Shown: in pieces, positions 8,459 through 22,053 of the stretch | How the letters are laid out: every line of letters begins with the position of its first letter | Position numbering within the stretch: position 1 is the stretch's first letter | Assembly (NCBI GenBank): GCA_023150375.1 | Contig: JAKLLA010000002.1 | Location: forward strand, 62,001-126,000 | Source of the DNA: Burkholderiaceae bacterium | GTDB lineage: Bacteria; Pseudomonadota; Gammaproteobacteria; Burkholderiales; Burkholderiaceae_C | Reading direction: 5' to 3' | Length of the DNA stretch: 64,000 bases | The notes under the pieces: model-generated | Told to the model about the DNA's origin: nothing | Seen by the model: the letters and a program-made list of their open reading frames with translations, nothing else | Database searches by the model: none | Translations under genes and position numbers: made by a program

Positions 8459-9910
8459 TCAGCGCGGCAACATGAAGGTCGACTTCTCGCGCAGCACCCG
8501 GGCGCCCTCCTCGGCGCTGGGCAGGCGCTCGATGGTGAAGTGCACCTCGTGCGCGCCGGGCTTCAGCGACGCGGCCGTCTCCGGCGGCACGCGCAGCGAC
8601 ACGGTCAGCCAGTGCGCCTCGGCGGGGCCCAGGGTGATCTCGGGCGCGCCGCTGGCCTGCAGACCGGCCAGCCCGTCGGCGGCGATGCGGTAGCGCTGCT
8701 GGCTCTCGGTGGCATTCATGACCTGCAGGCGGTAGACGTTCTCGACCCAGCCGTCTTCCACCACCCTTGCCAGCGAGGCCCGGTCGCGCACGACGTCGGC
8801 CTTGAAGGGGCTGCGCATCGCAATGCTGGTGCCCACGCCCACGCAGATCAGGATCAGGATCACGGTGTAGATCAGCACGCGCGGGCGGAAGACCCGGCGC
8901 ATCAGCTGCTGGCGGGTCAGCTTCTGCGCCACGCCATTCTGCGTGTCGTAGCGCACCAGACCGCGGGCGTAGCCCATCTTGTCCATCACCGTGTCGCAGG
9001 CATCGATGCAGGCGGCGCAGCCGATGCACTCGTACTGCAGGCCCTTGCGGATGTCGATGCCGGTGGGGCAGACCTGCACGCACAGGCCGCAGTCGACGCA
9101 GTCGCCCAGGCCCTGGGCCTTGTGGTCGTTCTTCTTGCTGCGCGTACCGCGCGGCTCACCCCGTTCGACGTCGTAGGTGATGATCAGCGTGTCCTTGTCG
9201 AACATCGCGCTCTGGAAGCGCGCGTACGGGCACATGTACTTGCAGACCTGCTCGCGCATGAAGCCGGCGTTGCCCCAGGTCGCGAAGCCGTAGAACAGCA
9301 CCCAGAACCATTCCCAGGGGCCGAAGCCCAGGGTCATCGCGGCGGCCCAGAGGTCACGGATGGGCGTGAAGTAGCCGACGAAGGTGAAGCCGGTCCACAA
9401 CGAGATCAGGATCCACACCGAGTGCTTGCCGAGCACGCGCCAGGCCTTCTCGGCCGACCAGGGCGCGGCATCGAGCTTCATGCGCTTGACGCGGTCGCCC
9501 TCGAACTTGCGCTCCACCCACATGAAGATCTCGGTGTAGACCGTCTGCGGGCAGGCGTAGCCGCACCAGAGCCGGCCCGACACCGCGGTGAAGAGGAACA
9601 GCGCATAGGCCGACACCAGCAGCAGCGCGGTCAGGTAGATCAGGTCCTGCGGGTAGAAGACCAGGCCGAAGATGTAGAAGCGCCGCGTGGTCAGCTCGAA
9701 GAGCACCGCCTGCCGGTCGTTCCACATCAGCCAGGGCAGGCCGTAGAAGACGATCTGCGTGAGCCAGACGAAGGCCCAGCGCCAGTTGTTGAACAGGCCC
9801 TGCACCGACTTGGCGTAGATCTTCTTGTGGGCCTGATAGAGCGAGACGTACTTCTTCTCGCCGGGGTCACTGCCGCCTGTGGCGGCTGCGGGTTCGGGCT
9901 GCTTGCTCAT
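8459..9910 (-). CDS. ccoG: CcoG (RdxA/FixG), copper-handling ferredoxin for cbb3 oxidase assembly
   Basis: A 483-residue inner-membrane protein with helices around WAFVWLTQIVFYG and LLLVSAYALFLF, a CGYACPQTVY motif, and two [4Fe-4S] ferredoxin motifs (CVDCGLCVQVCP and CIGCAACIDACD) followed by a C-terminal Ig-like periplasmic domain. CcoG reduces Cu(II) during assembly of the Cu centre of cbb3-type cytochrome oxidase. It normally sits with ccoNOPQ; those genes are not in the window, so here it is separate. Upstream lie a sigma-54-like element and a perfect FNR-type box, consistent with low-oxygen expression. No Shine-Dalgarno is obvious before the ATG. Confidence 0.93.
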   Translation of the reverse strand: MSKQPEPAAATGGSDPGEKKYVSLYQAHKKIYAKSVQGLFNNWRWAFVWLTQIVFYGLPWLMWNDRQAVLFELTTRRFYIFGLVFYPQDLIYLTALLLVSAYALFLFTAVSGRLWCGYACPQTVYTEIFMWVERKFEGDRVKRMKLDAAPWSAEKAWRVLGKHSVWILISLWTGFTFVGYFTPIRDLWAAAMTLGFGPWEWFWVLFYGFATWGNAGFMREQVCKYMCPYARFQSAMFDKDTLIITYDVERGEPRGTRSKKNDHKAQGLGDCVDCGLCVQVCPTGIDIRKGLQYECIGCAACIDACDTVMDKMGYARGLVRYDTQNGVAQKLTRQQLMRRVFRPRVLIYTVILILICVGVGTSIAMRSPFKADVVRDRASLARVVEDGWVENVYRLQVMNATESQQRYRIAADGLAGLQASGAPEITLGPAEAHWLTVSLRVPPETAASLKPGAHEVHFTIERLPSAEEGARVLREKSTFMLPR

Positions 9911-9970: not shown

Positions 9971-10004
9971 CCATACCCACAAAGGTATCAAGATGCATGC
10001 CACC
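9971..10004 (-). promoter_or_regulatory. Sigma-54-like promoter plus ATACC/GGTAT dyad before ccoG
   Basis: Read on the minus strand this has TGGCATG, 4 bp, TTGATAC, with GG and GA 12 bases apart as required for -24/-12 geometry (consensus TGGCAC-N5-TTGC; here the last C is A). It is followed by a GGGTAT that makes an ATACC-N6-GGTAT dyad. The same block with identical spacing occurs before the octahaem operon (14351-14387) and before cydP (21854-21886). The predicted transcription start is about 60 bp before ccoG. Confidence 0.6.
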
Positions 10005-10071
10005 CTAGTCTTGACGCAGGACATCCATCGAAACAAGCACTTGCGTCGAAGCACCGCAGCGTACTCGGCTT

Positions 10072-10085
10072 TTGACGGTCGTCAA
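10072..10085. promoter_or_regulatory. FNR/Anr-type box
   Basis: TTGAC-GGTC-GTCAA matches the TTGAY-N4-RTCAA consensus of FNR-family regulators exactly. It lies about 160 bp before ccoG and about 90 bp upstream of the predicted sigma-54 start, in the 245-bp gap between dsrE and ccoG. It could activate ccoG under low oxygen. Confidence 0.55.
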
Positions 10086-10155
10086 TCAAGACACAAATGG
10101 CAGTTCATGCCAAAAGCGTCAGATTCTGGTCGCAGAGGCGCCCGGCCCGACGGGA

Positions 10156-10569
10156 TCAGAACGCCAGCGTGCGCACGCCGGGTTTCATCAGGTGCGCGGC
10201 CACGTCGGCAGGCTTGGCCGGCGTGACGCCGCTGATCAGGTCGGCAGGCTGCTTGCCGCTGTTGGGCAGGTACAACGCGCAGACCTCGACCTTGGCACCA
10301 CCGGCCATCACCTTCTGCAGCAACTGCTGCGGGGTGACGTTGCGCGGCTTCAGCGCCGGCATTTCCTTGCCCTGCAGCGCGATGTCGCCGGCCGCGTCGC
10401 ACAGCAGCACCCGCACCGCCACCTTCTGCTCGAGCGCCTGGCCGGCCAGCACCAGGCCGGCGCCCTGCGCCATCACGCCGGCCGAGTGAATCGAGACGAA
10501 CAGTTCATCGGCCTGGGCGGCCAGGGCGGCGCAGGACAGCAGGGCGGCGGCAACGAGGGATTTCTTCAT
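10156..10569 (-). CDS. Exported DsrE/DsrF-like protein
   Basis: A 137-residue protein with a clear signal peptide (KKSLVAAALLSCAALAAQA) and a DsrE/F-like alpha/beta domain: FVSIHSAGVMAQGAGLVLAG, then VRVLLCDAAGD and VEVCALYLPNSGK. Cytoplasmic DsrE proteins carry sulfur on a cysteine; this copy is predicted periplasmic and keeps two cysteines after processing (in LLCDA and EVCAL). It is the last gene of the octahaem cytochrome operon, 58 bp after the DUF302 gene. A periplasmic sulfur-transfer or sulfur-binding role is inferred from family and context. Confidence 0.8.
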   Translation of the reverse strand: MKKSLVAAALLSCAALAAQADELFVSIHSAGVMAQGAGLVLAGQALEQKVAVRVLLCDAAGDIALQGKEMPALKPRNVTPQQLLQKVMAGGAKVEVCALYLPNSGKQPADLISGVTPAKPADVAAHLMKPGVRTLAF

Positions 10570-10627
10570 GGGTCGGTTTCCTGTGTGAGGAGGGTGGAAG
10601 GAAGGGATCGAAAGGAAGGCAAGGCGC

Positions 10628-11032
10628 TCAGGCCGGCTGCGCCAGCCGGTCGGCGACCCGGCGCAGCGCGGCCCGGGCCACTTCGCAGGCAGCGCGCACC
10701 TCGGGGTTGTCGGTGGCCGCACCGATCAGGCGCGGGTCCTGCATCGCGATGCGGGTGTGGCCGGGGCGGGGCTCGCTGACCGCGCAGCCGCAGGGCAGCA
10801 GCGCGGCGATGTCGGGCTCGGCCCGGGTGATGGCCTGCACGACCCGCGGGCTGCACACCCCCAGCAGACGCTGCGGCGGCGTGGCCACGCCGAGCTGGGC
10901 TGCCAGGGTGGCCTGCAGATCCACCTCGCTGACGATGCCCAGCTGCTCGGCCGCCAGCGCCGCGCGCAGCGCCTCGACCGCCTGCGTCATGGGCTGCGCC
11001 AGCTCGACGAGCAGGGCGTAGGGCGTGTTCAT
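10628..11032 (-). CDS. DUF302-domain protein
   Basis: A 134-residue protein without a signal peptide. It shows the DUF302 pattern: a first strand-helix with TPYALLVELAQPMTQAVEALR, then LGVCSPRVVQAITRAEPDIAALLPCGCAV and a C-terminal IGAATDNPEVRAACEVA. Function of DUF302 is unknown; members are often found with sulfur and haem-copper redox genes. Conserved cysteines occur in GVCSP and PCGCAV. It is 11 bp after the Rieske gene and 58 bp before the dsrE-like gene, so co-transcription is likely. Confidence 0.85.
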   Translation of the reverse strand: MNTPYALLVELAQPMTQAVEALRAALAAEQLGIVSEVDLQATLAAQLGVATPPQRLLGVCSPRVVQAITRAEPDIAALLPCGCAVSEPRPGHTRIAMQDPRLIGAATDNPEVRAACEVARAALRRVADRLAQPA

Positions 11033-11043
11033 GCCGATGCTCC

Positions 11044-11655
11044 TCAGGCCGCGTCCTCGCCGATGCGCAGGCGGGCCTCGCCGAGCCAGCCGTGCGGCGG
11101 GATCTCGAGGTTGGTCGGCGCCGGCTTGTTCTTGAACACCCGGCCGGCCAGGTCGAAGGTGGAGCCGTGGCAGGGGCAGAAGAAGCCGCCGGGCCAGTCG
11201 GCGGGCACGCTGGGGTGGCCGCTGCCGGCGGCCACCGCGTTGGGCGAGCAGCCCAGGTGGGTGCAGATGCCGATGGCGACGAACACCTCGGGGCGGATCG
11301 CCCGGGCCGGGTTGCGCGCGTAGTCGGGCTGCTGGTTCTGGCGCGACTGCGGATCGGCCAGGTCGTCGTCGTGGCCGGCCAGCGCGGCCAGCTGCTCGGG
11401 CGTGCGGCGCACGATCCACACCGGCTTGCCGCGCCATTCCACCGTCTTCATGCCGCCGGGCGGGAGGTCGCTCACCTCCACCTCCACCGCCGCGCCGGCG
11501 GCGCGGGCCCGCTCACTGGGCGCGAAGCTGGAGACGAAGGGCACCGCCGTGGCCGCCACCGCCGCCGCACCGGCCGCGCTGGAGGCCAGCAGCCAGACGC
11601 GGCGCTGGGCGTCGTCGGGCAGATCGAGGGAGGGAACGGCGGTGGCGTCGGACAT
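11044..11655 (-). CDS. PetA-type Rieske iron-sulfur protein in an octahaem cytochrome operon
   Basis: A 203-residue protein with an N-terminal RR-containing hydrophobic anchor (RRVWLLASSAAGAAAVAATA, Tat-like), the SFAPSERARAAG hinge typical of cytochrome bc1 Rieske subunits, and a C-terminal [2Fe-2S] domain with CTHLGC and CPCHGS supplying two Cys and two His ligands. In bc1 it would shuttle electrons from quinol to cytochrome c1, but no petB/petC follows; its neighbours are a cytochrome b561-like protein and an octahaem cytochrome c. Start supported by GGAG 8 bp upstream. It is probably a paralogue recruited to a different quinol-linked complex. Confidence 0.88.
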   Translation of the reverse strand: MSDATAVPSLDLPDDAQRRVWLLASSAAGAAAVAATAVPFVSSFAPSERARAAGAAVEVEVSDLPPGGMKTVEWRGKPVWIVRRTPEQLAALAGHDDDLADPQSRQNQQPDYARNPARAIRPEVFVAIGICTHLGCSPNAVAAGSGHPSVPADWPGGFFCPCHGSTFDLAGRVFKNKPAPTNLEIPPHGWLGEARLRIGEDAA

Positions 11656-11728
11656 GGTGGTCGGCTCCTGCAGGCAAGGAAGGGGGCGGGGGCCACCCGC
11701 GCTCGGGCGGGCGGCAGGGTGGCGCGGG

Positions 11729-12439
11729 TCAGTGCGTCCTGGCACCGTCGGCGTGGGGCGCCGCGGCAGGATCGGGGCCGTGCGGCTCGAGATCCTCCCA
11801 GCCGGTGATCATCGACTTGATGTGCGCCAGCGGCGTGTGCCCGGTGGTGGTCAGGTACACGTGCACGATGAAGAAGGTCAGCATCATGAAGGCGCCGGCC
11901 GTGTGGGCCCAGGCCACCCATTCGAGCGTCAGCCAGCGGTCCAGGCCGAACTGCGGCCAGAAGGCCCGGAACAGGTAGAGCAGGCCGGAACCCCAGATCA
12001 GTGGCGACACCGCCGCCAGCAGCGCCAGGTAGGCCAGCCGCTGCAGCGGGTTGTGCTTGCGCTGCACCGTCTTCTGGTAGGGGTGCGGCGCGCCGCGGAA
12101 CATGCCCCAGGCGTAGTAGCGCGCCATCGCATCCACCTTCTTGAGCGTGGGCAGGTACTGCCGCCACTCGCCGGTGGTGAACTGCCAGAAGATGGTGAAG
12201 GCCCACAGCAGCAGCAGCGCCCAGGCCGCCAGGGTGTGCAGTCGCACCGCCTGGGCAAAGCCCAGCAGGGTGTAGCTGCCGTGCACCTCGAAGCCGGTGA
12301 GCAGCATCGTGATGATCAACCCCGCCTGCGACCAGTGCCAGAAGCGCTCGTAGCGCTTGAAGATGTAGATGCGCCCTGCCCCGGTTTCGCCCGGGGTCCC
12401 GGCGGCCCGCGGCGCGGGGTGAAGGGTGGCGTCAGACAT
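11729..12439 (-). CDS. Cytochrome b561/formate-dehydrogenase-gamma-like membrane subunit
   Basis: A 236-residue integral membrane protein with four or five helices. Histidines in FWHWSQAGLI, HTLAAWALLL, WAHTAGAFMM and FFIVHVYLTTTGH are placed to bind two b haems, the pattern of FdhI/thiosulfate-reductase-type cytochromes b (often annotated cytochrome b/b6 domain). It probably links the quinone pool to the octahaem cytochrome whose gene overlaps its start by 8 bp. The Rieske gene follows 73 bp later. Confidence 0.85.
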   Translation of the reverse strand: MSDATLHPAPRAAGTPGETGAGRIYIFKRYERFWHWSQAGLIITMLLTGFEVHGSYTLLGFAQAVRLHTLAAWALLLLWAFTIFWQFTTGEWRQYLPTLKKVDAMARYYAWGMFRGAPHPYQKTVQRKHNPLQRLAYLALLAAVSPLIWGSGLLYLFRAFWPQFGLDRWLTLEWVAWAHTAGAFMMLTFFIVHVYLTTTGHTPLAHIKSMITGWEDLEPHGPDPAAAPHADGARTH

Positions 12440-14249
12440 GGCGGTGCTCCGGGGATTGGCGACGACGGGTCAGGACACGGGCACCGGCGTGCAGCAGCAC
12501 ACCGGCCAGCGATGCGACCACCACCAGCCAGCCGATGCGGTCGATCCAGGGGTGGGCGTCGCGCGCGGGCAGGTAGACCCCGCCCAGTCCGGCCAGGCGC
12601 CCCTGGGACGAGCCGGTGTGGCACTGCACGCAGGAGACGGCCTGCTCCTTGGGCGCCACCATGTGCGTGATGGGCCAGAGCATCTCGGTGCGCACGAAGT
12701 CGTGCTGGCCGCTGTAGGGCTTGCCGGTGGCCTCGGCGCCGGCCTTCAGCGCCTTGGGCCAGTCGAAGTTGAACCAGAAGGCCGTGTCGTCGGGCGTGGC
12801 GGTGTGCGGCACCAGCAGGTGACCGTGCACCTTGTCGTAGGGCTGCTTGCCCTCGAAGCGCTTGACCGGCCAGATGCGCGCGGCGGGGTCGTCCGGACTG
12901 CCGTGGAAGGTGTTGATCTTCACCACGCTGCCAGGCTGGATCTTGTCCTCCTGCGTGGTGTAGGTCACCCGGCCGTCGAACCAGAGGTACTCGGGCACCA
13001 CGTTCTCGCCCAGCTTGAAGTCGCCCTTCTTGCTGTCGTAGATCACGTGGCCGTGTTCGTCCTTCTTCTGGATCGGCTTGCCTTCCGGGGTAAGCCGGCC
13101 GGCGGTGGACCAGTCCCAGGCCATCTTGGTGGCCACGCCGCCGCGCGCAAAACTGGGCACATGACAGCTCTGGCAGGCCAGCTTGTTCGTGTGGTTGTTC
13201 AGCAGCTCGACCTGCAGCAGCCCCTGCCGGTGCGGCTTGTCGCCGTGGCAGGACTGGCAGGTGGCGGCATTGCGCCCGGCGTTGTGCACGCTGTCGCCGC
13301 GCAGCATCGGCCCATGCGGATCGGAGGCCGTCATCGTGATGCGGCTGCCGGCGATCCGGTGGCCGTCGGACTGGTGACAGGTCGCGCAGCTGAAGCCGGC
13401 GCCGCCCTGGGCCTTGCTGGCCATGTGCACATCCAGCTCGCGGCTGGCGCGGTTCAGCGAGGAGTCCAGGTCGCCGTGCTTGACGCCGTCACCGCCACCG
13501 CCGTAGTAGTGACAGCTGCCGCAGGTGGCCGTGCTGGTCCTGCCCACGTGTTTGGCGACCAGCGCCAGATCCACCGGGTCGAAGAACTTGCCCGAGCCGG
13601 GCGGGTACTCGGTGCGCTCGGTGGGCACCTCGCCGGCCATGCCGGCGGGCTTCCGGTAGCCGCCGGTCTGGTGGCAGACCAGGCAGTCGACCTTGCTTTC
13701 GGCCGTGAAGTCGAAGCTGGCATCCTTCCAGCCATAGCCGACGTGGCAGGACTGGCAGAAGGCCTCGTTGGAGCGGTCGCCGATGCAGAAGCTGTTGAGC
13801 ATCGACTTCTTGCCCAGCTTCTGCCCCGTCTGCGGGTTGGTGTACTCCCAGGTCCAGTGGCGCGTGCCCATCACCTGCCGGGCGGCCTCGGTGTGGCAGC
13901 CGATGCAGGCCTGGGTGACCTCCTCACCGCTCTTGAAAGGCCCCTGCAGTTCCTTGAACTTGCTGTGATCGGCCGTGCTCACCCGCCAGCCCCCGGCCGG
14001 CGCCGAGGCCGCCGAACTCGCCGCAGCGGCCGAGGCGACGGCCGCCGGCGCTGCGACCGATGCCGCCGCAGGTGCCGATGCGGCCGGGAAGGCCAGCGCA
14101 GCGCCCGACAGGCCCAGCAGCGCGAGACCGGCGGCCAGACGGCGCAGCGGTTGCCACCGGCATCGGCGCACAGCGCCGACCCGGTGGGTGACAGGGGCGG
14201 CATCGCGCGGTGGCGACGCCCAGGGCGGCGGGTTCATCGGATCGGCCAT
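12432..14249 (-). CDS. Octahaem c-type cytochrome of the tetrathionate reductase (OTR) family
   Basis: A 605-residue exported protein. After a signal segment (RLAAGLALLGLSGAALAF) there are exactly eight CXXCH motifs (CIGCH, CQSCH, CLVCH, CGSCH, CATCH, CQSCH, CQSCH, CVQCH). The C-terminus adds a membrane anchor (GWLVVVASLAGVLLHAG) absent from the soluble Shewanella OTR. OTR proteins reduce tetrathionate, nitrite and hydroxylamine in vitro; the physiological substrate here is unknown. First gene of a five-gene operon with a b-type cytochrome, Rieske, DUF302 and DsrE-like genes. Start at 14247-14249 has GGAG 8 bp upstream. Confidence 0.9.
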   Translation of the reverse strand: MADPMNPPPWASPPRDAAPVTHRVGAVRRCRWQPLRRLAAGLALLGLSGAALAFPAASAPAAASVAAPAAVASAAAASSAASAPAGGWRVSTADHSKFKELQGPFKSGEEVTQACIGCHTEAARQVMGTRHWTWEYTNPQTGQKLGKKSMLNSFCIGDRSNEAFCQSCHVGYGWKDASFDFTAESKVDCLVCHQTGGYRKPAGMAGEVPTERTEYPPGSGKFFDPVDLALVAKHVGRTSTATCGSCHYYGGGGDGVKHGDLDSSLNRASRELDVHMASKAQGGAGFSCATCHQSDGHRIAGSRITMTASDPHGPMLRGDSVHNAGRNAATCQSCHGDKPHRQGLLQVELLNNHTNKLACQSCHVPSFARGGVATKMAWDWSTAGRLTPEGKPIQKKDEHGHVIYDSKKGDFKLGENVVPEYLWFDGRVTYTTQEDKIQPGSVVKINTFHGSPDDPAARIWPVKRFEGKQPYDKVHGHLLVPHTATPDDTAFWFNFDWPKALKAGAEATGKPYSGQHDFVRTEMLWPITHMVAPKEQAVSCVQCHTGSSQGRLAGLGGVYLPARDAHPWIDRIGWLVVVASLAGVLLHAGARVLTRRRQSPEHRHV

Positions 14250-14350
14250 GCTTGTCTCCTGGATGTACGGTGACCTGGAGCCCGACCCTGCGCGCCACAC
14301 CGTCAGGCAAGGAGGAAAGGAAGGAGCGGACACACAGACCGGACTCCAGG

Positions 14351-14387
14351 ACCGATACCCACCCTTGTATCAAGAGCCGTGCCAAGG
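14351..14387 (-). promoter_or_regulatory. Sigma-54-like promoter plus dyad before the octahaem operon
   Basis: On the minus strand: TTGGCACG, 4 bp, TTGATAC, then GGGTATC. The -24 half is a perfect consensus; the -12 half has TTGA instead of TTGC. The dyad GATACCC...GTATC has the same spacing as at 9971-10004 and 21854-21886. The predicted start is about 105 bp before the octahaem cytochrome gene. Confidence 0.65.
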
Positions 14388-14483
14388 CCGAATCTGCCGC
14401 CGCGCACAGGGAGAAGCGCGCCGCACCGCCGCTCCTGGCGGCGCCCGCCTGCCGGAAGTGTCAGATCGCCTCGGCCAGCGATG

Positions 14484-15467
14484 TCAGCCATTGGCAGAGC
14501 CGGCGGGGACCTGCGGGCCGCCACGCAGCGACCGAGCCAGGAAGTCGAGCAGCGGCGCCTCGTGGTCCGCCAGGGCGGCCCGCAGGTCGTGGTCGCCTGG
14601 CACCCCCAGCAGCTGCGCGCCGGGCGGGGCCGCGGCCTGAAGGCGCAGGGCATCTTCGAAGGGCACCGTATCGTCGTCGCGGCCATGCACCAGCAGCAGC
14701 GCGGCCGGCAGCCCGGCCACCGTGTGCAGCGGCGCGATGGCATCGAAGTCCGTGCCGATGACCCGCTGCACATGACGCAGCACGGCACGGCCGATCGGCA
14801 CGTAGGGAATGCGCCGGGCCGCCAGCCAGCGCCGCATCACCTCCTGCGGGTGGGCGAAGGCCGACAGGCTGATCACCGCCCGCGGCGCCTCGCCGGGACC
14901 CGCCAGGCGGGCGGTGTACAGCAGGGCCGCCGCCGCGCCGACCGAATGGCCGACCAGCACCAGCCGGGCGCCGTCCACGCCGATCTGACCGCGCAGCCAG
15001 GCCACGCCGGCGCCGATGTCCTCGGCAAAGCGCGGCATCGAGGTGAACTCCACCGGGTCGCTGCAGCCATGCCCGCGGGCATCGAGCAGCAGCACGGCCA
15101 GCCCGGCCCGCAGCAGCGGGCCGACCAGCGGCGCCATCGCCGAGGCGTTGGAGCCCCAGCCGTGCATCAGCAGGGCCACCGGGAACGTCTGCCGATCGGT
15201 TGGCGGCGCAGGACGCAGCCACCAGGCGGCCAGGGTCTTGCCACCGGGGCCCGGCAGCCGCAGGGCCTGCAGCGCGGCGCCGGCCGGCGCCTGTTGCAGG
15301 AGCGCCGGCAGCGGGTCGTGCGGCTCCTGCGCAGCCCGCAGCCCCCGCAGGATCGCGTGGTGAAACAGCCGCGGCCCCAGCCCCATGGCCAGTGCGGCCG
15401 CCAGCCCCAGGGCCCCCATCCCCCCCACCGCAGCCGCCCCCGGCAGGCTCGCGGCCGCGTCCATCAT
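14484..15467 (-). CDS. Alpha/beta hydrolase
   Basis: A 327-residue alpha/beta-hydrolase. Visible elements: oxyanion region LMHGWGSNA, the DARGHGCSD strand, the nucleophile elbow GHSVG with Ser, the acid in HGRDDDTVPF and the terminal His in GDHDLR. A hydrophobic N-terminal segment (AAAVGGMGALGLAAALAMGLG) may anchor it in the membrane. The substrate is unknown. It is 21 bp after the degenerate globin gene and is probably the last gene of that operon. Confidence 0.75.
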   Translation of the reverse strand: MMDAAASLPGAAAVGGMGALGLAAALAMGLGPRLFHHAILRGLRAAQEPHDPLPALLQQAPAGAALQALRLPGPGGKTLAAWWLRPAPPTDRQTFPVALLMHGWGSNASAMAPLVGPLLRAGLAVLLLDARGHGCSDPVEFTSMPRFAEDIGAGVAWLRGQIGVDGARLVLVGHSVGAAAALLYTARLAGPGEAPRAVISLSAFAHPQEVMRRWLAARRIPYVPIGRAVLRHVQRVIGTDFDAIAPLHTVAGLPAALLLVHGRDDDTVPFEDALRLQAAAPPGAQLLGVPGDHDLRAALADHEAPLLDFLARSLRGGPQVPAGSANG

Positions 15468-15488
15468 GGCCAGCCCGCGCCGCGGCGT

Positions 15489-15908
15489 TCAGGCCGGGGC
15501 ATCGTCGGTTTCGACCAGCTGGGCGGCGGCAGCCATCATCACCTGCCAGATCGCATCGCGCAGGGCGATGTCCGATACGGCCGCCTCCAGCGCCAGGCGC
15601 ATGCACAGCAGCCATTCGTCACGCTCTTCGGCGCGCAGGCGGCAGGGCCGCTGCGACAGCACCACGCCCGGCCCGCCCGGTGCCGATGGCTCCAGCCAGT
15701 CGTGCAGGTAGGCCATGAGCAGAGCCTCGCGGGCCGGGCGCTCGCGCTGGCCGAGCCGGTGCAGCGACCAGCTGCCCGGCATCTGCTCGATCAGGCTGTG
15801 GAAGTGCTGCACCAGCCTGCGCAGCCCGTGCTCGCCACCCAGGCGGACGAGCAGGCTCGTGCCTGCCACACCGTTCTCGGCGCTGCGGCCGGCGTCGAAC
15901 GCCGTCAC
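15489..15908 (-). CDS. Globin-like protein lacking the proximal haem histidine
   Basis: A 139-residue paralogue of the group II truncated haemoglobin encoded two genes upstream. Gapless alignment on the shared ERDEWxLCM helix (Trp99 here) puts Gln86 where the true globin has its proximal His82, and His37 where that protein has the B10 tyrosine. The fold is probably kept, but canonical haem binding is doubtful. I chose the GTG at 15906-15908, overlapping the preceding stop (GTGA), which indicates translational coupling to the thioredoxin-like gene. It may act as a partner or sensor subunit; that is inference. Confidence 0.7.
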   Translation of the reverse strand: MTAFDAGRSAENGVAGTSLLVRLGGEHGLRRLVQHFHSLIEQMPGSWSLHRLGQRERPAREALLMAYLHDWLEPSAPGGPGVVLSQRPCRLRAEERDEWLLCMRLALEAAVSDIALRDAIWQVMMAAAAQLVETDDAPA

Positions 15909-16381
15909 AGCCCGAGCGCGCTTCGCAGCTGCGCCTCGCTGCCGGCAAACTCGATGCGCTGCACGCGGCCCTGTTCCAGGTGGATCAGCGTCACCGCCTC
16001 GGCCTGCCGGGGCCAGTCGGCCAGAGCCGCCTCGTCCAGCGAGACGCCGACGCGAAAGGGCTGCTCGCGCAGCGCCGGCAGCGCGAAGGTGCGGGTGATC
16101 AGCCCGGGCATGCGGCTCATGTCGGCCAGGTAGACCGCCCGCCGGCTGGCCAGGAAGTCCTTCGGCTGCGTGCCGAGCACCGACTGCACCCGGTTCGAGG
16201 CCTGGCGGCTGGCCGCGAAGATCAGCAGCCGGGTCTGCGCCTCGATGCGCCACGGCTGGCCGTGCTGGTCCTCCAGCCGGAGCTCGGGCAGCGGCTGGCC
16301 GGCCTCGACCGGGGCGGCCTGGGCCGCCAGGGGCAGCGCCAGGGTCAGGGACAGGCTGAGCGTCAGAAGGAGCTTGCGCAT
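15905..16381 (-). CDS. Exported thioredoxin-fold protein without active-site cysteines
   Basis: A 158-residue protein with a signal peptide (MRKLLLTLSLSLTLALPLAAQA) and a redoxin-like layout (LPELRLEDQHGQPW, then LLIFAASRQASNRV). Where thioredoxins have WCxxC it has Ser58-Arg-Gln-Ala-Ser62, so it cannot do dithiol chemistry. It resembles cysteine-free periplasmic redoxin-fold proteins. It lies 6 bp after the truncated haemoglobin gene and overlaps the degenerate globin gene by four bases. Confidence 0.6.
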   Translation of the reverse strand: MRKLLLTLSLSLTLALPLAAQAAPVEAGQPLPELRLEDQHGQPWRIEAQTRLLIFAASRQASNRVQSVLGTQPKDFLASRRAVYLADMSRMPGLITRTFALPALREQPFRVGVSLDEAALADWPRQAEAVTLIHLEQGRVQRIEFAGSEAQLRSALGL

Positions 16382-16387
16382 GGTCGT

Positions 16388-16822
16388 TCAGGCCGCCAGG
16401 CGATGCGAGCCGTCGCCGCAGCCGCGGCCATCGGTGTTGACCATGTGCTCGGCCATCTGCGTGAAGGCCTGCAGCAGGCCGTCGCGCAGCGCCTCGTCGG
16501 CCACCTGTTCGGTCAGCGCGCTGCGCATGCACAGCATCCACTCGTCACGCTCGGTCGGTCCGATCGCATAGGGCAGATGGCGCATGCGCAGGCGCGGATG
16601 GCCGTGTCGCTCGATGTACAGGGCCGGGCCGCCGAACCAGCCCGAGAGGAACTCGAACAGGCTCTGGTTGGCCCCGGCCAGGCTTTCGGGGTGGATCCTG
16701 CGCGCGGCGTAGGCCTCCGGCAGTTCGTCCATCAGCGCATAGAAGCGGTCCACCAGGCGGTGCAGGCCCTCGGCGCCGCCGAGCGCTTCGTAGGGGGTGA
16801 GGGTTGGGGAGGGAGATGACAT
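16388..16822 (-). CDS. Group II truncated haemoglobin
   Basis: A 144-residue globin of the GlbO type. Diagnostic residues are visible: Tyr28 (B10) in DRFYALMDE, proximal His82 (F8) in RMRHLPYAI and Trp95 (G8) in RDEWMLCM. Such proteins bind oxygen and nitric oxide and are linked to NO detoxification or oxygen delivery. It follows the Acr3/BASS-like transporter by 34 bp and precedes the cysteine-free thioredoxin-like gene by 6 bp. An ATG about nine codons upstream is in frame, but the chosen start gives the usual length. Confidence 0.88.
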   Translation of the reverse strand: MSSPSPTLTPYEALGGAEGLHRLVDRFYALMDELPEAYAARRIHPESLAGANQSLFEFLSGWFGGPALYIERHGHPRLRMRHLPYAIGPTERDEWMLCMRSALTEQVADEALRDGLLQAFTQMAEHMVNTDGRGCGDGSHRLAA

Positions 16823-16856
16823 GGCAGTGGCCTTTCGGATGCCGGGAACAGGGGCC

Positions 16857-17891
16857 TCAGCCCGCCTTGGCGGCAGGTGGGGCCGCCGGTGAGACGACGG
16901 TGGTGGCATTCGGTCCGGCGGCGGGGCTTGCCGGCGGGCCGAACAGACGGTCGGTGAATCGCACGTACCAGGCCGCCGCCTGCACCTGGACGATGTAGGC
17001 CAGCGCGATCAGCAGCGCCGCCTCGGCCCCCCGGGCGCCGAACACCCCCATCGCGATCGCCAGCGCGATCGAGAGATTGCGCATCACCGTGCCGTAGACC
17101 AGTGCGATGGCATCGCCGCGGCGGAAGAAGACCTTGCCGATCAACGTGCTGAGCGCGAAGTTCAGCGCGTACACCCCGAGCAGCGGCAGCAGCAGGCCGG
17201 GCAGCATGGCCGGCTGGGCCAGCAGGTCGCGCGACTTCAACGCCATCGAGACAAACACGATGCCCAGCACGCCCAGCGTCGAGAAGGGTGGAAAACGCGG
17301 CGCCAGGCGCTGCTTGAACTCGGCCTCGCCATGGCGCGCCACCAGGCGCCGCCGCGTGAGGTGACCCAGCGCCAGCGGCAGGAAGACGATCAGCGCGATC
17401 TGAGCGAACACCTGCAGCACCGGGATCTCCACCACCGCACCGAGCAGCCCCTTCAGGTACAGCGGCGCCAGCAGCGAACCGGCCACCAGACCGAGCACGG
17501 TCATCTTCACCGCGGCGGGCACGTTGCCCTTGGCGAAACCGGTCCAGGAGATCGTCATGCCCGAGGTGGGCAGCAGCGCGGTCAGCAGCAGCGCCAGACG
17601 CAGCATCGGCTGCTCGGGGAAGAACAGCAGGCCGGCCCCGTAGCCGATGGCCGGCACCAACGCGAAGTTGATCGCCAGCGTGGTGGCCTGCAGGCCGCCG
17701 CCGCCGCGCCCGAGCAGCTGGCGCAGGTCCAGCGAGACCATCATCGGGTAGACCATCAGGAAGGTCAGCGGCAGGATGGCCGCGCGCAGGAAGGCCGGAT
17801 CGGCCGCGGCGCCGAACAGCAGCCCGGCGAGCATCGCGGCCGGAATGCTCCAGACCAGGTTCTTCTGCGCCCACATCAAGGCGTTCCACAT
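16857..17891 (-). CDS. Acr3/BASS-like transporter without the Acr3 cysteine
   Basis: A 344-residue, ten-helix inner-membrane protein of the bile acid:sodium symporter superfamily, close to the arsenite exporter encoded at 3094-4131 (shared VYPMMVSLD). At the equivalent of the catalytic PCT motif it reads LLPTSGMTISWTGFAKGN (108-113 PTSGMT), so the essential cysteine of Acr3 is replaced. It is therefore unlikely to be a classical arsenite pump; a different anion or thiol compound is possible. It sits 28 bp after a DUF6858-like gene in an operon of globins. Confidence 0.8.
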   Translation of the reverse strand: MWNALMWAQKNLVWSIPAAMLAGLLFGAAADPAFLRAAILPLTFLMVYPMMVSLDLRQLLGRGGGGLQATTLAINFALVPAIGYGAGLLFFPEQPMLRLALLLTALLPTSGMTISWTGFAKGNVPAAVKMTVLGLVAGSLLAPLYLKGLLGAVVEIPVLQVFAQIALIVFLPLALGHLTRRRLVARHGEAEFKQRLAPRFPPFSTLGVLGIVFVSMALKSRDLLAQPAMLPGLLLPLLGVYALNFALSTLIGKVFFRRGDAIALVYGTVMRNLSIALAIAMGVFGARGAEAALLIALAYIVQVQAAAWYVRFTDRLFGPPASPAAGPNATTVVSPAAPPAAKAG

Positions 17892-17919
17892 GGCAGTCTC
17901 CCCGGTGAAGGTGGGCCGA

Positions 17920-18309
17920 TCAGGCGTTGCGCAGGGCCAGCGCCCAGGACTGCATGGCGTCGTTGGCCGGCTTCATCGGCGCGTCCATGAAGCTGACGAC
18001 GAAGTGTTCGCCCAGGTCGGCGATGCCGATCGAGCGCGGACGCACCGCCAGCACCTGCGCGTTGGGCAGCGCATGGCCGAAGCAGAAGATCACATTGGTG
18101 GCCGCCTGGATCTCCGGCGCGATCTCGCCGCCGATGGCCCGGGTGTGCGCGTGGTGGTCGAAGGTGCCGATGTACTGCACGCGCGGGGTCTCGGCGATAC
18201 GCTCGCGCAGCCAGGCGGCGATCTCCTCGACGCTGCGGAAGGTGGTCTCGGACTTGGCGATGTCGACGACCGTGATGGGGTATTTCTGCTGAAAGTGGAG
18301 TTGCTTCAT
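17920..18309 (-). CDS. Small conserved protein, DUF6858-like
   Basis: A 129-residue soluble protein of unknown function that I recognise as a conserved family (probably DUF6858). Notable are GTFDHHAHTRA around residues 48-58, VIFCFGHALPN at 73-83 and VRPRSIGIADLGEHFVVSFM, suggesting a small ligand- or metal-binding domain with clustered histidines and one cysteine. First gene of the globin operon; a dyad related to the ccoG/octahaem/cyd promoter element lies about 60 bp upstream. Confidence 0.75.
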   Translation of the reverse strand: MKQLHFQQKYPITVVDIAKSETTFRSVEEIAAWLRERIAETPRVQYIGTFDHHAHTRAIGGEIAPEIQAATNVIFCFGHALPNAQVLAVRPRSIGIADLGEHFVVSFMDAPMKPANDAMQSWALALRNA

Positions 18310-18370
18310 GGTGAGGTGGCGGGACAGGTAGGAGAGCAGGCGCGGCGAACAGCCCGAGGTCGCCCACAGA

Positions 18371-18400
18371 ATACCCCCAAGGGCATACGAATGCCAGAGC
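18371..18400 (-). promoter_or_regulatory. Dyad and partial sigma-54-like element before the globin operon
   Basis: ATACCC and GGCATAC have the same 11-bp register as the ATACC/GGTAT dyads before ccoG, the octahaem operon and cydP. On the minus strand a TGGCAT and a TATGCC follow, but the GG to GC distance is 11, one short of sigma-54 geometry, so promoter identity is uncertain. The symmetric element is the secure part. Confidence 0.4.
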
Positions 18401-18412
18401 CTGAGGGCATTC
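18389..18412. promoter_or_regulatory. GAATGCC-N10-GGCATTC inverted repeat
   Basis: Perfect 7-bp arms with a 10-bp centre, overlapping the end of ybgE and lying immediately upstream of the globin operon element. It could be an activator site or a weak terminator hairpin for the cyd operon; there is no T-tract. Confidence 0.35.
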
Positions 18413-18695
18413 AGAGGCCCCAGCGCAGCCAGGCTGCCAGCAGCAGGGCGGCCGCACAGGCGCTGGCCGAGAAGAAGCGGCGCCAGAGCCCGTGCCGCGG
18501 CACGAAGCCGACGCCGCGCACCAGCCCGGCGCTCATGGCCCAGAACAGCGCCAGCGCGAGGCGATGGTCCGCCTGCCCCTGCGCGTCGGTGAACAGCAGC
18601 GGGTGCACGCTGCCCACGGTCATGATCGACAGGCCCACGATCAGACCGGGCCAGTGCAGCGACGCCACGGGCGCCGGGTGCGCGCCGCTGTTCAT
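18411..18695 (-). CDS. ybgE: Cyd operon protein YbgE
   Basis: A 94-residue membrane protein with three hydrophobic segments. The family signature is visible in SVHPLLFTDAQGQADHRLAL and MSAGLVRGVGFVPRHGLWRR. YbgE is a conserved accessory protein of cytochrome bd operons; its precise task is unresolved. The ATG overlaps the cydX stop (ATGA). Confidence 0.85.
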   Translation of the reverse strand: MNSGAHPAPVASLHWPGLIVGLSIMTVGSVHPLLFTDAQGQADHRLALALFWAMSAGLVRGVGFVPRHGLWRRFFSASACAAALLLAAWLRWGL

Positions 18696-18808
18696 CGCGG
18701 CTCCTCGTCGGCCTGCTCGCGGGCCTGGGCGTGTTCGCCCCACATTGCGTTCATGACGGCCAGCAGCACGGCGAAGCCGACGCCGAGCATCCAGGTGAAG
18801 TACCACAT
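18692..18808 (-). CDS. cydX: CydX, small subunit of cytochrome bd oxidase
   Basis: A 38-residue single-helix protein beginning MWYFTWMLGVGFAVLLAVMN and continuing AMWGEHAQAREQ, the standard CydX pattern of an N-terminal WYF, one helix and a charged tail. CydX stabilises the haems of cytochrome bd. It lies 79 bp after cydB and overlaps ybgE by four bases. Confidence 0.93.
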   Translation of the reverse strand: MWYFTWMLGVGFAVLLAVMNAMWGEHAQAREQADEEPR

Positions 18809-18887
18809 GGTTCGATCTCCGGGTTCCGAAGGGTGCGTCGCGGATGACCGGCCCACCGGGTGGGGAGCAGGCGGTGCGACGCGAGGA

Positions 18888-20030
18888 TCAGTAGGCGGTG
18901 TGCTCGTTGGCGCGGATGTGCGCCACCGTCACCTTGCCGCGCATCACCCGGTAGGCCCAGGCGGTGTAGGTCACGATCAGCGGCATGAAGATCAGCGTGG
19001 CCCAGAACATCAGCCCGAGCGTCAGGTGGCTGGAGACGCTGTCCCAGACCGTGAGGCTGTGCGAGGGATGGGTCGACGACGGCAGCACGAAGGGAAACAG
19101 CGCCACCCCGGCGGTGCCGATCACGCCGAGCACGGCCAGCGAGGAGGCCACGAAGGCCCAGCCGCTGCGCCCCCGGATCAGCAGCCCCATCGCCGCGATG
19201 GCCCCGCCCACGCCCAGGACGGGCAGCAGCCACAGCGCAGGCTGCCACTCGAAGTTGATCCACCAGGCATTGCCGGCGCGCACCACGGTCTTGGCCAGCG
19301 GGTCGGGCAGCGCCGCGGGGTCGACCGCCGTGGCGATCGCGAAGCCCTCGATGCCGCCCAGGCGCAGCCAGAGCCCGGCGGCCAGGAAGGTCAGCACCAT
19401 CACGCAACCGGCCGCCAGCGTCGCCCCGATGGCCCGGCGCTGCAGAGCGCCCTCGGTGCGGTGGGCGAGGTAGGTGCCGCCCTGCAAGGTGATCATCGCG
19501 CTGGACACCACGCCCACCAGCAGCGCGAAGGGATTGAGCAGGGCCCAGAAGCTGCCGGTGTAGGTGGGCACCAGGAAGTCGTCGAAATGGAAGGGCACGC
19601 CCAGGAAGAGGTTGCCGAAGGCCACGCCGAAGATCAGCGGCGGCACGGCACCGCCGACGAACAGGCCCCAGTCCCAGGTGCGACGCCAGAGCGGATGGTG
19701 AATCTTGCTGCGGTAGTCGAAACCCACCGGCCGGAAGAACAGCGCCCAGAGCACCGCCAGCATGGCCCAGTAGAAGCCGCTGAAGGCCGTGGCGTAGACC
19801 AGCGGCCAGGCCGCGAAGATGGCGCCCCCGCCGGTGATGAACCAGACCTGGTTGCCGTCCCAGTGGGGACCGACGGTGTTGATGACGACGCGGCGTTCCT
19901 CGTCGCTGCGCCCGACGAAGGGCAGCAATGTGCCCACGCCCATGTCGTGGCCGTCCATGACGGCAAAGCCCACCAGCAGCACGCCCACCAGCAGCCACCA
20001 GATCAGTTTGAGGGTTGGATAGTCCAGCAT
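18888..20030 (-). CDS. cydB: Cytochrome bd ubiquinol oxidase subunit II
   Basis: A 380-residue integral membrane protein with helices matching CydB: it opens LKLIWWLLVGVLLVGFAVMDGHDMGVG, then VGPHWDGNQVWFITGGGAIFAAWP, and contains WINFEWQPALWLLP. With CydA and CydX it forms a high-affinity terminal oxidase that also tolerates sulfide and NO. It starts 12 bp after the cydA stop. Confidence 0.95.
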   Translation of the reverse strand: MLDYPTLKLIWWLLVGVLLVGFAVMDGHDMGVGTLLPFVGRSDEERRVVINTVGPHWDGNQVWFITGGGAIFAAWPLVYATAFSGFYWAMLAVLWALFFRPVGFDYRSKIHHPLWRRTWDWGLFVGGAVPPLIFGVAFGNLFLGVPFHFDDFLVPTYTGSFWALLNPFALLVGVVSSAMITLQGGTYLAHRTEGALQRRAIGATLAAGCVMVLTFLAAGLWLRLGGIEGFAIATAVDPAALPDPLAKTVVRAGNAWWINFEWQPALWLLPVLGVGGAIAAMGLLIRGRSGWAFVASSLAVLGVIGTAGVALFPFVLPSSTHPSHSLTVWDSVSSHLTLGLMFWATLIFMPLIVTYTAWAYRVMRGKVTVAHIRANEHTAY

Positions 20031-20042
20031 CGCGCAGGTCTT

Positions 20043-21680
20043 TCAATGGGGTTGAACCGAGCCCAGGCGCGGATCCGGCTTCGCCGGGCCGCCGACTGAG
20101 CCCCCGTGGGGGGTGGCGAGCGCCTGCGAGCCTGGGGGCTCCCTGTCGTAGCGCCCGGTCCCCAGGCTGCCGGGGCCCATGCGCGCGAACTTGACCATGA
20201 GGTACATCTCGACGATCAGCAGCACGGTGTAGAAGCCGACGAAGCCGGCCAGCGAGCCGTAGAGGCTGTTCACGCTGAGCGTGGAGACCGACAGGTGCGT
20301 GGGCAGCACGCCGTAGATGGTCCAGGGCTGCCGGCCGTACTCGGCGACGAACCAGCCCAGTTCACAGGCGATCCAGGGCGCCGGCAGCATCCACACCGCC
20401 CAGCGCAGCAGCCAGGGACGGGCCCGGCACTGCGACTTCAGCGTGCTCCAGAAGCTCAGGCCGAACAGCAGCAGCATCGCGAAGCCCAGCGCCACCATGA
20501 CCCGGAAGCTCCAGAACATCGGCGCCACGCGCGGCACGGTGTCGTTCACCGCGCGGTCGATCATCGCCGGCGTGGCCTGGCGCACGTCGGCGGTGTACTT
20601 CTTGAGCAGCAGGCCGAAACCCAGGTCGGCCTTCTTCGCCTCCAGCGTGGCGCGTGCGGCCGCGTTGCCGCGGTCGCGCCGCAGCGTCTCCAGCGCCACC
20701 ACCGCGTCGATGCCGTTGACGATGCGCTCGCGGTTCCTGGCCTTGATCTCGTGGATGCCGGGAATCTGCCGGTCCAGCGAACGCGTGCCGATCAGCCCCA
20801 TCACCCAGGGAATCTCGACCTCCCAGCTGTTGCGCTGGTTCGCTTCGTCGATGCCGGCGATCAGCTTCAGCCCGGCCGGGGCCGGCTCGGTCTCCCACAT
20901 CGCCTCGAGCGCCGCCATCTTGGTCTGCTGCGCCTCGCCGACCATGTAGCCGCTTTCGTCGCCCAGCACGATGACCGAGCACACGCTGGCCAGCCCGAAG
21001 GCCGAAGCCACGCGGAAGCTGCGCCGGGCGAACTCGACGTCCCGCCCCTTCAGCAGGTACCAGGCCGAAATCGACAGCACGAACATCGCCCCGGTGACAT
21101 ACCCGGCGCTGACGGTGTGCACGAACTTGGCCTGCGCGTCCGGGTTGAAGACCACCGCCCAGAAGTCGGTCATCTCCATGCGCATGGTCTGCCAGGAGAA
21201 CTCCGCGCCCACCGGGTTCTGCATCCAGCCGTTGGCAATCAGGATCCACAGCGCCGACAGGTTGGTGCCCACGGCCATCAGCGTGGTCACCAGCAGGTGC
21301 TGGGTCTTGCTCAGCCGGTCCCAGCCGAAGAAGAACAGGCCGATGAAGGTGGACTCGAGGAAGAAGGCCATCAACCCCTCGATGGCCAGCGGGGCGCCGA
21401 ACACGTCGCCCACGTAGTGCGAGTAGTAGGCCCAGTTGGTGCCGAACTGGAACTCCAGCGTGATGCCGGTGGTCACGCCCAGCGCGAAGTTGATGCCGAA
21501 GAGCTTGCCCCAGAAGCGGGTCATGTCCTTCCACACCACGTTGCCGGTCATCACGTAGACCGTCTCCATGATGACCAGCAGCCAGACCATGCCCAGCGTC
21601 AGGGGCACGAAGAGGAAGTGGTACATCGCCGTGGCAGCGAACTGCAGCCGCGACAGGTCGACCAGGTTGTCCGGGATCAT
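20043..21680 (-). CDS. cydA: Cytochrome bd ubiquinol oxidase subunit I
   Basis: A 545-residue membrane protein. LSRLQFAATAMYHFLFVPLT carries the haem-ligand histidine of helix 1; FQFGTNWAYYSHYVGDVFGAPLAIEG and STFIGLFFFGWDRL are diagnostic, and HTVSAGYVTGAMFV follows. The quinol-binding Q-loop includes GEAQQTKMAALEAMWET. Its ATG overlaps the cydP stop (ATGA), so the two are translationally coupled. Confidence 0.96.
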   Translation of the reverse strand: MIPDNLVDLSRLQFAATAMYHFLFVPLTLGMVWLLVIMETVYVMTGNVVWKDMTRFWGKLFGINFALGVTTGITLEFQFGTNWAYYSHYVGDVFGAPLAIEGLMAFFLESTFIGLFFFGWDRLSKTQHLLVTTLMAVGTNLSALWILIANGWMQNPVGAEFSWQTMRMEMTDFWAVVFNPDAQAKFVHTVSAGYVTGAMFVLSISAWYLLKGRDVEFARRSFRVASAFGLASVCSVIVLGDESGYMVGEAQQTKMAALEAMWETEPAPAGLKLIAGIDEANQRNSWEVEIPWVMGLIGTRSLDRQIPGIHEIKARNRERIVNGIDAVVALETLRRDRGNAAARATLEAKKADLGFGLLLKKYTADVRQATPAMIDRAVNDTVPRVAPMFWSFRVMVALGFAMLLLFGLSFWSTLKSQCRARPWLLRWAVWMLPAPWIACELGWFVAEYGRQPWTIYGVLPTHLSVSTLSVNSLYGSLAGFVGFYTVLLIVEMYLMVKFARMGPGSLGTGRYDREPPGSQALATPHGGSVGGPAKPDPRLGSVQPH

Positions 21681-21856
21681 CGGGTTTCTCCTTGCGAGAG
21701 GGACGGCGCGCGGCCGAGGTGCAGGCCGGCAGCGTCGGTGTCGACCGGCACGCGCGCATCGCGCACGAAACCCCACCACAGGAGGGTCAGCAGCAGCAGC
21801 TTGACCCCCACGGCCAGGACCAGATGCCGGAGCAGACGACGGTCGGAATTTGTCAT
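21677..21856 (-). CDS. cydP: CydP-like small cytochrome bd-associated protein
   Basis: A 59-residue protein with one membrane helix (HLVLAVGVKLLLLTLLWWGF) and a polar tail ending SQGETR. This matches the putative small oxidase subunit CydP found before cydA in betaproteobacteria. The predicted sigma-54-type start falls within a few bases of the chosen ATG, implying a leaderless or very short leader; an ATG eight codons upstream lies inside the promoter element and is therefore less likely. Confidence 0.75.
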   Translation of the reverse strand: MTNSDRRLLRHLVLAVGVKLLLLTLLWWGFVRDARVPVDTDAAGLHLGRAPSLSQGETR

Positions 21857-21886
21857 ACCGCAACCCGTATCAAGCATCATGCCAGG
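21854..21886 (-). promoter_or_regulatory. Sigma-54-like promoter plus dyad before cydP
   Basis: On the minus strand: CTGGCATG, 4 bp, TTGATAC, then GGTATG. GG and GA are 12 bases apart. The GGTATG contains the cydP ATG. Same architecture and spacing as at 9971-10004 and 14351-14387. The divergent neighbour encodes a sigma-54 activator. Confidence 0.62.
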
Positions 21887-21979: not shown

Positions 21980-22008
21980 TTGTCACAAGCAGACGTCTGT
22001 GTCAGCAT
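21980..22008 (+). promoter_or_regulatory. Possible promoter with central palindrome for the activator gene
   Basis: TTGTCA (21980-21985) and CAGCAT (22003-22008) are 17 bp apart and could be -35/-10 elements for the regulator. The spacer contains the perfect 10-bp palindrome CAGACGTCTG (21990-21999), a possible autoregulatory site. The -10 match is only moderate. Confidence 0.35.
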
Positions 22009-22053
22009 AGTGGCAGTAGGTCCTGACGAAGCCGCCTCGATGAATCCCTGCCG

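Follow-up and report, generated by a model that had tools for sequence, protein, structure and literature searches.

Sulfide-oxidation regulons controlled by sigma-54 and the activator FisR are described from Cupriavidus pinatubonensis JMP134 and Acinetobacter baumannii, and they are the closest known counterparts of the locus treated here, a 64,000-nucleotide stretch (the window) of a Burkholderiaceae bacterium (assembly GCA_023150375.1, contig JAKLLA010000002.1, positions 62,001 to 126,000). Three similar blocks precede ccoG, an octahaem cytochrome operon and cydP in this window, and probably represent the sigma-54 promoters of one local regulon under a FisR-type activator encoded at 22054-23412. 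The shared traits are a sigma-54 activator gene divergent from a target operon and, as far as can be predicted for the window, a response to sulfide. As summarized in the review PMC9774590, three conserved cysteines enable the FisR of Cupriavidus to sense reactive sulfur, and the activator of the window likewise has three conserved cysteines. In the part of PMC7315123 concerned with A. baumannii FisR, this protein drives an sqr-pdo operon but is described as devoid of the three cysteines, and sulfide is reported to raise the expression of cydAB, the product of which is called refractory to H2S. The known FisR targets are sqr and pdo, whereas cytochrome bd, ccoG and an octahaem cytochrome take their place here.

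Sigma-54 promoters are characterized by GG at -24 and GC at -12, as defined in the motif description of PMC8743547. The blocks of the window agree with this type in the TGGCAYG element, the 10-bp spacing from GG to G, the TTG and the upstream activator-type dyads, but carry A instead of C at -12, which goes with TC at -17/-16 in most of the related promoters. No report of FisR regulons with sigma-54 promoters of a TTGA class was found in the open literature searched, although an earlier description is possible, since the primary paper on the Cupriavidus FisR lay outside this search.

Promoter blocks and activator

The elements assigned to the putative regulon are as follows.

9973-10002, minus strand: box 1, candidate sigma-54-type promoter 5' of ccoG, TGGCATG-CATC-TTGATAC-N8-GTAT
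14355-14384, minus strand: box 2, candidate promoter 5' of the octahaem cytochrome gene, TGGCACG-GCTC-TTGATAC-N8-GTAT, with a perfect GATAC-N8-GTATC dyad
21855-21884, minus strand: box 3, candidate promoter 5' of cydP, TGGCATG-ATGC-TTGATAC-N8-GTAT, the right dyad arm overlapped by the cydP ATG
10098-10112, no strand assigned: candidate activator site 5' of box 1, TGGCA-N5-TGCCA
14482-14496, no strand assigned: candidate activator site 5' of box 2, TGTCA-N5-TGGCA
22000-22015, no strand assigned: candidate activator site 5' of box 3, TGTCA-N6-TGGCA
22054-23412, plus strand: candidate FisR-type activator with PAS_4 (PF08448), sigma-54 AAA+ (PF00158) and Fis-type helix-turn-helix (PF02954) domains, and Cys55, Cys66 and Cys73

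The initial annotation had placed the same block on the minus strand upstream of the three transcription units, with TTGA at -12 and a constant distance of 25 bp from ATACC to TGCCA, and all of this was found at the positions claimed, the distance being counted by eye from start to start on the plus strand. Its 4-bp spacer is correct if counted to TTGATAC, but shrinks to 3 bp if counted to CTTGATAC, and its ATACC-N6-GTAT dyad exists in the form ATAC-N8-GTAT common to all three boxes, while the perfect version is confined to box 2. Random occurrence of the motif throughout the genome had been named as an argument against the proposal, but was not observed. A search of the complete genome (4,631,127 bases, 4.63 Mb, in 43 contigs) with the 30-bp pattern TGGCAYG-N4-TTGATAC-N8-GTAT, allowing up to two mismatches, returned exactly three matches, which are boxes 1-3 without any mismatch, and the reversed control pattern gave none in the same genome at the same tolerance. 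The 8-bp spacers of the three boxes are not alike, and the similarity of the blocks should therefore not stem from recent copying of the whole region.

All three boxes show the TGGCAYG context with GG at -24, and the G of the -12 element is correctly placed 10 bp after it, but is followed by A instead of C, which classes them as a variant of the canonical promoter. A GTAT at one fixed place would be expected by chance with a probability of 9e-4 under the base frequencies of the window. Part of this motif in box 3 is accounted for by the ATG of cydP, so that only boxes 1 and 2 count as independent evidence for the GTAT arm. Of the 23 loci with a cydP match, 13 have the in-frame cydP ATG 13-15 nt past the -12 base. 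If transcription begins some 12 nt beyond this base, as at sigma-54 promoters, the cydP messages would be leaderless or nearly so.

Each promoter of the window is preceded by one TGNCA dyad with a spacing of 5, 5 or 6 bp, beginning 96, 98 and 116 bp beyond boxes 1, 2 and 3, respectively. Similar dyads recur among the relatives: in 59 regions upstream of boxes with A or T at -12, TGNCA-N4-TGNCA was found in 30 and TGNCA-N5-TGNCA in 24, whereas the 59 shuffled regions (one shuffle each) contained neither. The activator gene itself is divergent from box 3 and cydP, and its product is a candidate FisR-type persulfide sensor, as judged from its domains and cysteines. Cys55, Cys66 and Cys73 of its regulatory domain are retained in 66, 67 and 67 of 67 relatives above 57.5% identity (the single exception being a stop), in all 24 relatives of 50.5-57.5% identity, and in 23, 22 and 23 of 23 relatives below 50.5%. 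They presumably correspond to residues 53, 64 and 71 of the Cupriavidus FisR, which would have the same spacing. One match to RpoN was found in the genome, carrying the letters ARRTVAKYRE, which we take to be the RpoN box; a second RpoN dedicated to TTGA promoters is rejected on this single match.

The proposed regulation would start with the modification of the three cysteines of the activator by persulfide or polysulfide. The activator would then act from the TGNCA dyads, about 95-130 bp upstream, on RNA polymerase containing sigma-54 and waiting at GG(-24)/TTGA(-12), switching on a sulfide-tolerant respiratory set of cytochrome bd, ccoG and the octahaem cytochrome with its b561, Rieske and DUF302 partners. 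The boxes, the upstream dyads, the domains and cysteines of the activator, the conserved linkage and the association of A at -12 with the regulon are features of the DNA itself; sigma-54 dependence, the persulfide signal, the operon limits and the start sites are what we infer beside them.

The base at -12 among related activator loci

Relatives of the activator were collected from a genome scan, of whose 452 loci 80 were retained, and from the same family, where 399 genomes yielded them in 78 genomes, 44 of 141 genera and 81 places. The comparison comprised 114 loci, namely L034-L077 of the genome scan plus 30 and 40 loci from the family genomes, leaving aside 11 family places, of which one (G013) was taken up later. 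Using a criterion of GG-N8-(T/C)TG with at least 9 of 10 core positions and no weight on -12, a divergent -24/-12 box was recognized in 92 of these loci (91 distinct). The base at -12 depends on the identity class of the activator: A 42, T 7, C 5 and G 3 above 57.5% identity (57 distinct boxes), A 9, C 9 and G 2 at 50.5-57.5% (20 boxes), and C in all 14 boxes below 50.5%. In the middle class, all nine boxes with A belong to the family of the window, which also contributes one C and one G; the remaining eight C and the second G lie outside it. Where -12 is A or T (58 boxes), T mostly stands at -17 (51) and C at -16 (49); the combined TC occurs in 44 of these boxes versus 1 of 28 boxes with C (Fisher 8e-11, a value that ignores relatedness). 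The relatives with TTGC share the -24 element, the GG-N10-G spacing and the adjoining sigma-54 activator genes.

As a control, non-coding sigma-54-like sites near other sigma-54 activators were collected from 42 loci of the same genome and four further family genomes, filtering coding sequence by a base-composition rule of our own. These 15 sites read C 13, G 1, T 1 and A 0, versus A 3 and C 1 at the four sites in FisR-type loci of the same scan. The sigma-54 promoters of these genomes therefore do not have TTGA as a general habit. Together with the counts per identity class, this marks TTGA as a trait of the FisR-type regulon in this family, going along with TC at -17/-16. Judged from these counts, the -12 element has a lineage-specific variant with A, usually accompanied by TC. 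Comparison supports the sigma-54-type promoter of the initial annotation (GG-N10-G core, upstream TGNCA dyads, adjoining sigma-54 activator gene, one RpoN match in the genome), its suggestion of a local regulon under the nearby activator, and the conservation of TTGA.

Shorter patterns are less selective. TGGCAYG-NN-TCTTGA has matches in 148 of the 399 family genomes, and 25 of 30 fetched loci were without a match to the activator or to a regulon protein, most of the pattern matches in these loci lying in long open frames; this short pattern therefore does not define the regulon. TGGCACG-N4-TTGNW gave 126 matches in 25 activator genomes (A 43, C 36, G 31 and T 16 at -12), which are mostly background, while all nine activator-adjacent matches, marked by hand, read A.

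Several observations weigh against the assignment of the three boxes to a FisR/sigma-54 regulon. The defining GC at -12 is missing from them, 22 of the 114 activator loci are without a box at the threshold applied, the 57 boxes of the closest relatives include the five C and three G mentioned above, and the box of the FisR-type locus L330 also reads C. Moreover, no gene for SQR or a persulfide dioxygenase stands beside the boxes of the window, and among the 11 octahaem loci found in 10 of 54 genomes a TTGA box precedes the octahaem gene only in the window.

Sigma-54 promoters are recognized by a motif of which GC at -12 forms one half. Many members of one bacterial family have A in place of this C within the regulon of a single type of activator, while C is kept at the sigma-54-like sites near other activators in the five genomes compared. 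Scans requiring TTGC would overlook such regulons, which on the other hand offer a natural test of the role of the -12 base; as a conjecture, A at this position might loosen the silent closed complex.

Similar arrangements were also met elsewhere. Another genome of the same genus contains two FisR-type genes (L145 and L121) with an exact box at each. At the locus from Pseudothauera nasutitermitis (L066), three TGGCAYG-N4-TTG(A/T) boxes lie at -124, +1499 and +6044 relative to the start of the activator gene, so that another genus may have a small local regulon of this kind. In two further genomes (L179 and L183), a TTGA or TTGT box is found not upstream of the activator gene but immediately 3' of it, preceding a DUF302-type match.

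Genes of the putative regulon

The genes located 3' of the boxes are all encoded on the minus strand: cydP, cydA and cydB follow box 3, the genes for the octahaem cytochrome, the b561-type, Rieske and DUF302 proteins follow box 2, and ccoG follows box 1.

21677-21856, minus strand: cydP (NF045611 small_CydP, 48.8 bits, cut-off 29.6)
20043-21680, minus strand: cydA, cytochrome bd subunit I (PF01654)
18888-20030, minus strand: cydB, cytochrome bd subunit II (PF02322)
12432-14249, minus strand: octahaem cytochrome of the tetrathionate reductase family (TIGR04315, eight CXXCH motifs; the start at 14249 is our choice)
11729-12439, minus strand: cytochrome b561-type protein (PF01292)
11044-11745, minus strand: Rieske protein (PF00355)
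10628-10924, minus strand: DUF302 domain (PF03625; the interval extends from the domain position as far as the stop codon of its frame)
8459-9910, minus strand: ccoG (TIGR02745, above cut-off)

The genes divergent from the relatives' activators include cydP/cydA, ccoG and those for Rieske, DUF302, persulfide-dioxygenase-like and SQR-like proteins. The one persulfide-dioxygenase-like protein scanned had Blh as its best NCBIfam match (386 bits, below the cut-off of 625), and two SQR-like proteins matched SQR type III best (103 and 122 bits, below the cut-off of 525). This set of genes, taken together with the behaviour of cydAB under sulfide in A. baumannii, suggests a sulfide-tolerant respiratory regulon, which would connect cytochrome bd, ccoG and a multihaem cytochrome with an activator that probably senses sulfur. 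In three of the other octahaem loci (G025, G152 and G208), the octahaem gene comes after cydB.

The interval between cydB and box 2 codes for globin domains, an SBF transporter and a DUF6858 protein, the bacterial globin domains being located in two frames at 15489-16909. A flavocytochrome c sulfide dehydrogenase flavoprotein (FCSD domains) is encoded at 35345-36613, a hint of sulfide metabolism nearby.

The ATAC-N8-GTAT dyad and other readings of the blocks

The initial annotation had also proposed that a second protein may bind the dyad. This idea can be extended to a composite promoter, in which a FisR/sigma-54 promoter is overlapped by an operator GATAC-N8-GTAT (-13 to +4) for a CsoR/CstR-type DUF156 or a BigR/SqrR-type ArsR repressor, both of which are encoded on contig C33 of the same genome. 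Reactive sulfur would both activate FisR and lift the repressor, so that the FisR/sigma-54 regulon would be supplemented rather than replaced. These promoters may be overlapped by a sulfur-responsive repressor, but the composite promoter seems rather unlikely, as does the full double lock, in which the repressor would also control SQR-like and rhodanese genes in some genera; several observations are in its favour. If true, the change at -12 would serve both proteins, since the silence of the sigma-54 promoter would be loosened and then restored by the repressor.

Among 51 distinct TTGA boxes (boxes 1 and 2 stand outside this table), ATAC occupies -12 to -9 in 12, and 10 of these carry GTA at +1 to +3, compared to none of the 39 boxes without ATAC (Fisher 5e-9). 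The ten boxes come from five genera (three from the genus of the window, four from g91, and one each from g12, g59 and a Rubrivivax metagenome-assembled genome), but they are related, which the Fisher value ignores, and two later TTGATAC boxes (L280 and L283) are without GTA, giving 10 of 14 overall. The dyad is real but limited to some genera, and the majority of TTGA boxes do without it.

Within the genome, GATAC-N8-GTATC with at most one mismatch occurs at 24 places versus 6 for the control, and the surroundings of 10 of the 21 places outside boxes 1-3 were inspected. Seven of the 24 retain ATAC-N8-GTAT, namely the three boxes and four further copies, listed here with an associated gene.

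C13:206022: 84 bases 5' of an SQR-like gene (best match SQR type III, 207 bits, cut-off 525)
C11:50919: 27 bases 5' of a rhodanese gene
C33:28395: 13 bases 5' of an RND adaptor-pump operon with genes for a YgaP-like membrane protein and a DUF156 (CsoR-family) protein
C8:36994: within a rhodanese coding frame
C33, adjoining the RND/YgaP-like/DUF156 operon: BigR-like ArsR gene (66 bits, cut-off 155)

These copies before sulfur-type genes argue for a common operator, but a matrix built from the relatives' dyads ranks the SQR and rhodanese sites low and does not single out the copies. Furthermore, the C13, C11 and C33 sites have GATACCCCAT in common, which is absent from the boxes of the window, and by eye the TATAC of two of them, the rhodanese and the RND site, could be taken for a -10 element of the sigma-70 type. 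A second protein is no more than suggested by these data.

The N8 spacing of the dyad is that of the SqrR operator ATTC-N8-GAAT, as presented in PMC9774250 for the sites given there, but the letters differ from the ATAC/GTAT of the boxes. CsoR-family operators contain TAC/GTA inverted repeats, and one member, TTHA1953, also acts on sulfur oxidation, according to the relevant part of PMC10318464; as given there, its operator differs in spacing from the boxes of the window (TACNNTACNNNNGTANNGTA). The arms of CsoR/CstR operators, which are pseudo-palindromes usually with at least four G or C in a row, fit the boxes, but the G runs of the latter reach three at most, while the C13, C11 and C33 sites have GGGG/CCCC. 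No SqrR/BigR or CsoR/CstR operator at a sigma-54 promoter was met in the literature surveyed. A repressor combined with a separate activating system is known from Bacillus licheniformis yrkD/nreBC, where a CstR-like repressor acts on sqr and pdo with at least two overlapping promoters, in the account of this locus in PMC9918477; the activator there is a two-component system and not sigma-54-dependent.

It is quite improbable that the blocks are operators of another regulator with transcription beginning elsewhere. The lack of GC at -12 in all three and a dyad spanning the expected start would agree with this, but the relatives with TTGC combine the sigma-54-type features listed above with upstream TGNCA dyads, and most relatives are devoid of the dyad in question. 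The FNR/Anr box reads TTGAT-N4-ATCAA, and TTGA as the left half of such a box overlapping the promoter is the least probable alternative: TTGAT-N4-ATCAC or ATCAT occurs in L157, L035, L118, L119 and L171 and CTTG-N8-CAAG in others, and the dyad centre at -8.5 has the top shuffle z (3.4) of the centres tested, but columns -5 to -2 hold just 0.02-0.22 bits over 58 promoters and the right arm is missing in all three boxes of the window, for which this reading is rejected on sequence, as is a sigma-70 reading by eye.

The DUF156 relatives present on plasmids are too distant for an operator comparison. On C33 (L366, 2397-7932), the genes for the RND adaptor, the pump, the YgaP-like protein, the DUF156 repressor and the BigR-like ArsR protein stand in a row. 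Two dyad look-alikes on contigs C25 and C6 of the same genome (L359 at about 2000 and L363 at about 1973) are surrounded by a repeated element, the ends of which read GTCTTGCCTTTTGC and GCAAAAGGCAAGACCTGACCCC.

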